A stretch of 35,296 bases of DNA from an uncultured Bacilli bacterium (GTDB taxonomy: Bacteria; Bacillota_I; Bacilli_A; RF39; UBA660): contig CALVUT010000063.1 in NCBI GenBank assembly GCA_944363675.1, positions 1-35,296 of the forward strand. Reading direction: 5' to 3'. Under the pieces are notes generated by a model, which was given only the letters and a program-made list of their open reading frames with translations, did not search any database and had not been told where the DNA came from. Positions 17,743 through 19,974 of this stretch are shown piece after piece (within the stretch, counting starts at the first letter, position 1; the number at the start of each line of letters is the position of its first letter). Both the position numbers and the translations under genes were made by a program.

Positions 17743-17751
17743 TGCTATAAT
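17743..17751 (+). promoter_or_regulatory. Extended -10 promoter of the CarD-like gene
   Basis: TGC-TATAAT (17743-17751) is a consensus extended -10, with no good -35. It lies upstream of a hairpin (17767-17801) and a strong Shine-Dalgarno AAGGAGGG (17809-17816). These originally belonged to the CarD-like gene now at 19498, before an IS110 element separated them. Confidence 0.5.
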
Positions 17752-17766
17752 ATTAGTACAACGTGT

Positions 17767-17806
17767 AGCTATTCAAAAGGCTTAAGACCAGTTGAATAGC
17801 TTTTTT
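17767..17806 (+). terminator. Strong intrinsic terminator after trpS, inside the carD-like leader
   Basis: AGCTATTCAA (17767-17776) pairs perfectly with TTGAATAGCT (17792-17801) around a 15-base loop, and a T run follows (17801-17806). It can end trpS transcripts. It also lies downstream of the TGCTATAAT promoter, so it may act as an attenuator. Confidence 0.8.
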
Positions 17807-17907
17807 CTAAGGAGGGTTTAATCTGAAAAATAAACAAAATTTATTTTAGGAAAAAAAACTAAAAAAGGGCAGACTTCCCCTTACCCCAAGATAAAGTCAA
17901 AATTTAA

Positions 17908-19188
17908 TTATATCGTTTTGGCATTCTGATTGACTAAATTAACAAGTTCATCAGATGTAAGACCTAAAGATATTAATTGTTTAAGAGACCCACAAAAGTT
18001 GTTTTTGGTATATTTTAGTCTATCTTTATCAGAAGTTTCATTGGAAGCTAAATCACGAGGATTCCAAACTTCACCAGTAAGTAACATATGATAGACAGCA
18101 ACTAAGATCTTTCTAGCAATAGCAATGATGGCACGTTTCTTTCCACGTCGTTTAGAAATCTTGTTAAATTTATTTGCATAATAGGTGTTGGTTTTATCTT
18201 TTACAGCACTATGTGCGACCTCAACTAAACAAGGCTTAAGATAAACACCAGCTCTGGATATTTTAACAGATTTCTTTTTGCCAGCAGACTCGTTACAACT
18301 AGGAGCAAGACCAGCCCAAGCAGTTAAACGATAGTGATTAGAAAATTGTGACATATTCGTTCCTATTTCGGAAAGAATCGTAATAGCAGAGTTTCTATTA
18401 ATACCAGGAATTGTTAAAAGAAGATTAATATAATCTTCGTAAGGAGCAACTAAAGTATCTACAACTTCTCTTAAATCATTAATTTCGTTAGTTAAATAAT
18501 CAATATGATCTTTGATAAGTTTTATTCTTAGTTTTTGTTCATAAGTAAAAGTAATACCAGTAATAGAAGATAAAATGTCTTCTTTAGATGATTTGCAATT
18601 TTTACGAAGACAACTTATAATATCTTCATCTGAAAAAGAATCTTTCTCTAAAATGATATCAATGATATTTTGACTAGATTTACCAAAGATATCAGAGAAA
18701 ACCATGTCAAGTTTGCAATTACCAACAGTAAGAGCATTCGTAAATCTATTCTTTTCAGATGTTTTATTACAGGTAAGTTTGTAAAGATATCTAGTATATT
18801 CTCTTAAAACTCTAATATCTTTTGGAGGAATAAAACTAGACCGAACAATACCTAATTTGAACAAGTCTGCAATCCATTTTGCATCCTTGTTATCGTCTTT
18901 CTCACCTTTTATGACAGCAACCCATTTAGGATTAGCAACGACGACATTAGAAATAAAACCTTCTAATGCATTGTATACAGGAATATAATATTTGCCAGTA
19001 GATTCCATGCATACATTATCACAGTCGTTTTCGATAAGCCAATTTCTAAAGTTGATGAGATCGTTATGAAAGGTTGAGAAACGTCTTTTGTAATATTTCG
19101 GTGTTTGGCCTGTTGAATCACAAATGACAGCAACAATAAAATTTTTGTGAACATCAACACCACATACTTTTGAATAAATTACTTCCAT
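17908..19188 (-). CDS. IS110-family transposase (RNA-guided recombinase type)
   Basis: 426 residues. The N-terminal RuvC-like domain has the DEDD acids: D12 (GVDVHK), E62 (MESTGKYY), D99 and D102 (in KDDNKDAKWIADL). A coiled region spans about 190-250. The C-terminal Tnp domain has LLTIPGINRNSAITILSEIG, then the catalytic-serine region NESAGKKKSVKISRAG with S301. Known relatives use a bridge RNA made from the element's own left end to pair with donor and target DNA. The frame is intact with AAAGGAAG as ribosome binding site, so it may be active. Confidence 0.93.
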   Translation of the reverse strand: MEVIYSKVCGVDVHKNFIVAVICDSTGQTPKYYKRRFSTFHNDLINFRNWLIENDCDNVCMESTGKYYIPVYNALEGFISNVVVANPKWVAVIKGEKDDNKDAKWIADLFKLGIVRSSFIPPKDIRVLREYTRYLYKLTCNKTSEKNRFTNALTVGNCKLDMVFSDIFGKSSQNIIDIILEKDSFSDEDIISCLRKNCKSSKEDILSSITGITFTYEQKLRIKLIKDHIDYLTNEINDLREVVDTLVAPYEDYINLLLTIPGINRNSAITILSEIGTNMSQFSNHYRLTAWAGLAPSCNESAGKKKSVKISRAGVYLKPCLVEVAHSAVKDKTNTYYANKFNKISKRRGKKRAIIAIARKILVAVYHMLLTGEVWNPRDLASNETSDKDRLKYTKNNFCGSLKQLISLGLTSDELVNLVNQNAKTI

Positions 19189-19203
19189 AAATAAAGTCTT
19201 CCT

Positions 19204-19219
19204 TTCTAAAATTTTAGAA
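19204..19219. repeat. Perfect 16-base palindrome before the transposase start
   Basis: TTCTAAAATTTTAGAA reads the same on both strands and abuts the transposase Shine-Dalgarno (minus strand). It could be the 3' boundary of the bridge RNA, a translational control element or a protein site; the sequence cannot decide. Confidence 0.55.
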
Positions 19220-19221
19220 GG

Positions 19222-19411
19222 AGTGAGTTGTCTATGCAGTTAACACTAAGAATGAACTAAAGTCAATGATTAATCTACAGTCTCAAAGGAACTACTTATG
19301 TGTGCTTGAAACAACTGCACTTGCACTGCTTAAAATGCTGGTTAATCCGTAATAAGTTACAGGAAGTCTGCAACTTACCTCCCCGTGCTTTGTAGTACAC
19401 ACTCCTTCATG
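19222..19411 (-). ncRNA. Candidate bridge RNA of the IS110 element
   Basis: A promoter (19445-19418, minus strand) fires into about 190 bases of non-coding DNA before the transposase. In IS110 elements this is where the bridge RNA lies. Complementary segments are visible: TAAGTT and AACTTA near the 5' end, and TGCAGTT (19319-19313) with AACTGCA (19241-19235) enclosing a large loop. The word at 19328-19337 matches the genomic flank at 19491-19500 and is a candidate left target guide. The right target guide and donor guides are not resolved. Ends are approximate. Confidence 0.6.
19328..19337 (-). other. Candidate left target guide in the bridge RNA
   Basis: In transposase orientation the word is CATTTTAAGC. 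The DNA next to the insertion (19500-19491) reads the same. The first seven bases fall in the flank, the next two are the AG core, and the tenth matches the element end, probably by chance. Seven bases plus core is the guide length known from IS621. Confidence 0.55.
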
Positions 19412-19417
19412 ACTGTT

Positions 19418-19445
19418 ATTATATAGAAAAATAAATTTAGTTCAA
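19418..19445 (-). promoter_or_regulatory. Promoter of the candidate bridge RNA
   Basis: On the minus strand: TTGAAC (19445-19440), 16-base spacer, TATAAT (19423-19418). Transcription would start near 19411. The -35 box overlaps one arm of an inverted repeat (19440-19447 with 19466-19473). Confidence 0.6.
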
Positions 19446-19490
19446 GGTTTTCATTCCTATGTGTGCCTTGAACGAAGTGAAAGGAATGAA
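19440..19490. repeat. Two interleaved inverted repeats at the IS110 left end
   Basis: GTTCAAGG (19440-19447) is complementary to CCTTGAAC (19466-19473). TTCATTCC (19450-19457) is complementary to GGAATGAA (19483-19490). The order A-B-A'-B' is that of a pseudoknot if transcribed. They could equally be binding dyads for the transposase or regulatory proteins. Confidence 0.6.
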
Positions 19491-19497
19491 GCTTAAA

Positions 19498-19974
19498 ATG
19501 AGAAATGTTGGTGATTATATTGTTTTTCGAAAAGATGTTTGTGAGATTGTAGATATCAAAGAAAATCCTTTTAATCACGTTATGAGCTATACTTTAATAC
19601 CGATTACCGATCAATCTTTAAAAATGAATATTCCAATTGACAATGCTTCAATCCGGGATTTAATGACTATGGACGAATTAAATACATTAATTCAAGAAAT
19701 ACGTGATATCCCAGTAATAGAAGTTGAAGACAAACAACTAGAGCATGAGTACAAAAGATTATTAAACGAAGGAACAAACTATGATTTAGTACAAATTATT
19801 AAGACGACATATTTACGTAATCAAAAACGCCTCGAAAACAATAAAAAAATTAGTGATAAAGATCATCGTTATTTTGAGATGGCCGAAAATTATTTATACA
19901 ATGAAGTAGCAAAGGTATTAGATGTTGATTTAGAAAGCGCTAAAAAATATATTATTGAACACGTAAATAATTAA
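19498..19974 (+). CDS. CarD-family transcription regulator, 5' region displaced by IS110
   Basis: The start NVGDYIVFRKDVCEIVDI is the RNA polymerase-binding Tudor-like domain of the CarD/CdnL/TRCF family; a helical C-terminal domain follows. Such proteins stabilise RNA polymerase at promoters. 158 residues from 19498. The IS110 element lies directly before it, so its promoter and AAGGAGGG are now at 17743-17816. In-frame ATGs also exist at 19486 and 19459; the latter would add 13 residues mostly coded by the element. AAAGGA (19480-19485) from the element end may serve as replacement ribosome binding site. Whether it is still expressed is unknown. Confidence 0.85.
   Translation: MRNVGDYIVFRKDVCEIVDIKENPFNHVMSYTLIPITDQSLKMNIPIDNASIRDLMTMDELNTLIQEIRDIPVIEVEDKQLEHEYKRLLNEGTNYDLVQIIKTTYLRNQKRLENNKKISDKDHRYFEMAENYLYNEVAKVLDVDLESAKKYIIEHVNN

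Follow-up and report, generated by a model that had tools for sequence, protein, structure and literature searches.

An IS110-family element at a gene start carries a bridge RNA guide that matches the start codon

Introduction

How can a site-specific transposon find numerous places, in whatever genome, where it does no harm? The question is raised by a 35,296-nt contig of an uncultured Bacilli bacterium (CALVUT010000063.1, assembly GCA_944363675.1; the whole stretch is called the window here), in which an IS110-family element lies between the Shine-Dalgarno (SD) sequence and the ATG of a gene, in the orientation opposite to that gene. The initial annotation had proposed that the left end of this element encodes a bridge RNA with a guide matching the element's own insertion site; a translation start site as target was absent from its reading. 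An empty site, covariation among relatives, and natural reprogramming now bear out the guide. Furthermore, we consider it highly probable that the IS110 recombinase acts with a bridge RNA in which the target loop has been programmed to the consensus of the translation initiation region.

Empty site and core of the element

The 10-mer CATTTTAAGC, previously reported as shared by the RNA and the adjacent flank, was found in both (19337-19328 and 19500-19491, minus strand). A genome of the same genus (G029, locus L182) lacks the element and reads CTAAGGAGGGTTTAAAATGAGAAATG, which corresponds to both window flanks joined over a shared TA; this empty site, CTAAGGAGGGTTTAAAATGAG, matches the joined flanks of the window exactly. 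The search for an empty site in relatives that the initial annotation had suggested was thus successful. The host gene copy in G029 is 97% identical, and its SD and ATG are uninterrupted. Since the empty site equals the two flanks joined over TA, the core is TA and not AG, as had been assumed. Target and core account for CATTTTA only. The remaining letters of the 10-mer, AGC, belong to the left end of the element itself and are identical in 4/4 copies of the window's genome, so the claimed ten-base match stands for CATTTTA and falls for AGC. The right flank, which had been reconstructed as GATTAA, turned out to be mostly the right end of the element (CAGATTA).

In the window's genome (G000; 1.34 Mb, 102 contigs), three further left ends and one further right end were detected at contig ends. 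The four left ends do not differ as far as the 14-mer GAAGCTTAAAATGA and then continue into different genes. As to copies combining the same guide word with different flanks, which were to be looked for, the three other left ends have unrelated genes beyond the junction, and all keep CATTTTA. The common word might simply belong to the element end, all matched bases being internal and guiding nothing; this is indeed so for AGC, three letters of the ten, and the 14-mer is common to all four copies. This explanation is almost certainly wrong: it is refuted by the empty site, which has AAATG outside the element, and, among relatives, the flank bases vary, the guide follows them, and the ATG opens real genes.

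Covariation of the guide with the insertion site

Guides and flanks of copies in other genomes were compared in 39 non-redundant relatives at the three variable bases after CAT. Matches between the guide and its own flank amounted to 109/117, in comparison to 55±5 (maximum, 76) in 20,000 permutations, in line with the earlier judgment that the match is beyond chance. When permutation was allowed within element classes only, the values were 103/111 and 56±5. Extra covariation at column 8 (the third element-end base) was excluded from the evidence, because it tracks three element classes and may reflect ancestry.

In single relatives, the guide word was recovered from both RNA and flank (CATACTAACC in L055, ATAAGAAGC in L069, and ATTATAAA in L062). 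One genome, G479, harbors 21 copies with two guide types: TGTATTTTTATA is found with the flanks CATTT or CATCT, and TGTATATATATA with CATAT or CATAA. These copies show natural reprogramming, in which guide and flanks change together.

Start codons and SD sequences as predicted address

The guide consists of CAT and a spacer, i.e., ATG in reverse reading. The left junction was ATG in 67 of 70 copies, comprising 64 scored directly and three copies in the window's genome, which have open reading frames (ORFs) of 458, 113, and 291 aa in the ATG frame. The exceptions were L064, L083, and the tandem copy L152. ORFs starting at the junction ATG had a median length of 215 aa, and the other two frames reached at least 60 aa in 1/128 cases. 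Genes at the junction match family models (Pfam, NCBIfam) from their first residues, among them GAPDH, MetK, ribosomal protein L9, BipA, LDH, and YbaB. On an Enterococcus faecium plasmid, the independent Prokaryotic Genome Annotation Pipeline start of WP_002389899.1 coincides with the junction CAT. Judged by these matches, the junction ATGs are nearly always true gene starts. The Enterococcus faecalis copies (L212, 47.6% identity) contained no clear start-codon case.

On the other side of the element, the right flanks begin with the gene's SD-like word in 31/31 measurable cases of the main clade. The target loop has two variable strands, a purine-rich, SD-like segment on the 5' side and the guide CATNNNAA on the 3' side. 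The 5' segment, GGGAGGT in the window, reads GTAGGAG or GTGAGGT in relatives. In shift-tolerant matching, it scored 175 with its own right flank versus 160±4 with permuted ones (P = 0.01 within element classes). Furthermore, among elements with GTGAG guides, 7/17 had GTGA in the right flank, versus 0/12 among those with GGAG guides (P = 0.023). At a fixed register, the best of seven registers reached P = 0.04, which is not significant after correction. We conclude, with moderate confidence, that the SD-like segment is likely the right-target guide.

Several points weigh against this view of the address. The SD-like segment has no fixed register relative to the right target, with GGAGG located 0 to 5 nt from the core, and its covariation with the right flank is modest; the apparent reading of the SD could therefore partly reflect something else. 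The replacement SD discussed below is weak in the window's own clade (AGGA, 12 to 13 nt from the ATG). Moreover, many of the relatives are draft metagenome assemblies, and the evidence is wholly sequence based.

The loose fit of the 5' segment to the right flank would also be expected if the guide specified CATNNTA alone and SD sequences were seen only since insertions elsewhere had been lost by selection. We regard this as improbable. Elsewhere in the flanking DNA, the start-side words are rarely SD-preceded starts (TATATG, 0/26; AAAATG, 1/44; TAAAATG, 1/20), and insertion at many of them would be harmless, yet nearly all copies are located between SD and ATG. In addition, L064 and L083 have both segments changed together: the guide reads AGGATAAAC in place of CATNNNAAx, the 5' segment reads AAACCAG in place of GGAGGAG, and the insertion is in a TAGTTACAGGATA repeat without a start codon.

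Copies are found at genes that are generally essential, such as those for MetK and GAPDH, which suggests that expression continues after insertion. In 38/38 relatives, an SD-like word is located 3 to 13 nt before the ATG, versus 40% in shuffled sequences, and GAAAGGAATG is conserved. In some clades, the SD in the left end is perfect (AATGGAGGAA-NN-ATG in G479 and ATGGAGGTTAATATG in E. faecium). The left end places an SD-like sequence before the ATG, and translation could continue from the SD of the element. At the scan threshold, the left end showed no outward sigma-70-type promoter, and transcription of the host gene is therefore presumably provided by read-through. The SD-like sequence set before the ATG would also suit a different scenario, in which copies are kept at start codons because the promoter or SD they supply benefits the host, and not through the guide. 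This scenario is very unlikely, as it leaves the base-by-base covariation of the guide unexplained and an outward promoter was not seen at the threshold of the scan.

Bridge RNA, donor guide, and family placement

The paired segments noticed in the left end are real and are conserved in the alignment of relatives. In the 37-member alignment underlying the bridge RNA structure, 95.2% of cells were paired, and 19/31 pairs were changed on both sides, a value reached in 0/500 shuffles. The compensatory changes support the predicted structure. An Rfam search of the left end (19150-19560) gave no match up to an E value of 1. The promoter of the initial annotation was recovered independently. The features are listed in Table 1.

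Table 1. Features of the element and its insertion site in the window
Feature	Position	Strand	Basis or remark
Complete IS110-family element	17821..19495	-	Empty site in L182 identical to the joined flanks; same ends seen in copies with different flanks
Element ends	Right end, 17821; left end, 19493		Core then at 19494-19495
Core TA, left-end junction	19494..19495	Not assigned	Empty site and G000 copies
Left donor (element right end) CAGATTA	17819..17825	-	Core TA at 17819-17820
IS110 transposase, 426 aa	17908..19188	-	DEDD RuvC-like and Transposase_20 domains; Pfam, NCBIfam, and PDB matches
Intrinsic-terminator-like hairpin 3' of transposase gene	17864..17882	-	
Bridge RNA: outer stem, target loop closed by GCAC/GTGC, donor loop	19217..19407	-	37-member alignment
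Bridge RNA promoter TTGAAC-16-TATAAT	19418..19445	-	Ranks joint first among 14 promoter-like sites
Candidate right-target guide GGGAGGT, SD-like, 5' strand of target loop	19377..19383	-	Right-flank matching
Left-target guide CATTTTAA, 3' strand of target loop	19330..19337	-	CATTTTA matches left target and core
Left-donor guide GTAGATTAATC	19268..19278	-	AGATTA matches element right end; covariation
Host gene, 158 aa; ATG 19498-19500 is left target	19498..19974	+	G029 orthologue 97% identical
Original SD of host gene, AAGGAGGG; right target	17809..17816	+	Now parted from ATG by the element
AAAGGA in element left end, possible replacement SD	19480..19485	+	12 nt before ATG

The left-donor guide matched the right end of its own element at 75/78 positions, in comparison to 52.6±3.6 when permuted. 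TTAATC (19273-19268), previously taken for a right-target guide, lies within this donor guide and pairs with the right end of the element. No right-donor guide was found.

The transposase matches PF01548 (DEDD_Tnp_IS110; E = 4e-21), PF02371 (Transposase_20; 6e-17), the NCBIfam model NF033542 ("IS110 family RNA-guided transposase"; 210 bits, cutoff 140), and the IS621 recombinase structure in PDB (8wt6; E = 1.2e-8). Its motifs VDVHK, CMESTG, DDNKDAKW, and ISRAG correspond to the places of the catalytic D, E, DD, and S of IS621. Thus, the features of the IS110 family were found at the level of the protein (an N-terminal RuvC-like DEDD and a C-terminal Transposase_20 domain), of the structured noncoding RNA with its target and donor loops, and of the guides, which covary with the target and, for the donor guide, with the element end. 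A long noncoding region upstream of the transposase gene (307 bp from the left end to the gene; about 90 bp are noncoding 3' of it) is a feature of the IS110 group as opposed to IS1111. The guide order of IS621, in which the 5' strand of the target loop pairs with the bottom strand of the left target, was not found. Because the left flank is matched by the 3' strand of the target loop, we assign the element to the IS110 family but not to the IS621 type; the left-guide geometry of IS621, assumed initially, does not apply, the likely right-target guide being the 5' strand.

Proposed mechanism and relation to known systems

In the proposed mechanism, the 3' strand of the target loop would pair with the sense strand of the gene and read its start codon plus spacer (CAT-NN-core), and the 5' strand would most likely read the SD across the TA core, presumably by pairing. 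The donor loop would read the right end of the element. Recombinase and bridge RNA would bring a circular element to an SD-spacer-ATG, with recombination at TA. With both marks of a start read by the guide, the circle would therefore enter the SD-to-ATG spacer, pointing against the gene. Since insertion is almost only between SD and ATG, the coding sequence is left whole. The selective advantage may lie in an address that is present at many genes while the coding sequence is spared.

Host-sparing addresses are known elsewhere, such as glmS for Tn7 and tRNA genes for integrases. Their damage-avoiding address is at one gene, whereas the element would use an RNA-read, generic signal of very many genes.

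IS621, a member of the IS110 group with core CT and REP (repetitive extragenic palindromic) repeats as natural targets (Durrant 2024, PMC11208160), has in common with the element a DEDD recombinase, a bridge RNA encoded in the left end upstream of the gene with the target loop ahead of the donor loop, a core of two nucleotides, and a left-donor guide matching the element right end. The element differs in its TA core, its SD-ATG target, and its guide order, with the left-flank match on the 3' strand. The same guide order, a top-strand complement followed by a bottom-strand match, is described for IS1111 in the searched passages of Siddiquee 2024 (PMC11187229). The noncoding region of the element is, however, upstream of the transposase gene (IS110-like) and not downstream. 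The same study also reports natural reprogramming among relatives in IS1111/IS110 seekRNA systems, and no translation starts were found as targets in the passages searched. We file the parts under the IS110 bridge RNA systems (PMC11208160, PMC11187229) and the kind of target of this clade as new. No published account of elements aimed at start codons turned up in the open-access library searched; we do not claim priority, because subscription papers and preprints lay outside that search.

Known bridge RNA elements address particular sequences such as REP repeats, whereas the present one would address the grammar of genes, which would answer how a site-specific transposon finds many harmless homes. 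The clade provides a natural test of bridge RNA guide tolerance, and its naturally reprogrammed bridge RNAs form a compact and diverse collection whose guide order differs from that of IS621. It may also offer a natural route for DNA insertion at gene starts and be a source of mobile changes in 5' untranslated regions (5' UTRs) that alter host-gene translation.

Mini-elements, distribution, and further observations

Mini-elements of about 68 bp, in which the left tip is joined to the right tip without transposase or bridge RNA, were detected at L195, L202, L196, L197, and L206, and similar ones at L041, L199, and L200 (genomes G035, G013, G034, G007, G023, and G033 of the same genus). They, too, have a start codon on one side and an SD-like sequence on the other. 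They are probably mobilized in trans and alter the 5' UTR of the host gene. On balance, we favor the broader view that clade-wide guides for a generic translation start, together with an SD-replacing end, permit insertion at many of a genome's genes, a large share that takes in essential ones, with the protein kept, and that the nonautonomous ~68-bp derivatives spread as swappable 5'-UTR cassettes.

Among named relatives, the nearest are metagenome bins of uncultured Bacilli and Tenericutes. Viral contigs searched with three transposase queries yielded no relatives, and neither did phage records. The host gene product had no Pfam or NCBIfam match.

Tandem copies were observed in G705 (L147, L152) and G564 (L130, L137, L142). 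Those in G705 are joined right end to left end through the TA core (CAGATTATAACCTC). Such a join would be expected if a circle had inserted into a copy already present, and it fits a circular intermediate.

The repeat occupied in L064 and L083 (TAGTTACAGGATAATGTGTTGTTT...) has uninterrupted sites at L175, L177, and L179. On the Roseburia sp. 831b plasmid (L211), the annotated start of WP_330546512.1 (1163 in the locus) lies 14 codons inside; the true one is probably the in-frame ATG that forms the junction with the element (1205).

Upstream of the host gene, positions 17745-17808 (plus strand) contain TATAAT, six bases, and ACAACGTGTAGCTATTC...ACCAGTTGAATAGCTTTTTT, and this arrangement is conserved in at least 10 relatives of the same genus. 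A comparison with Rfam gave no credible match. The unit looks like a small RNA of ~55 nt with its own -10 box and terminator.
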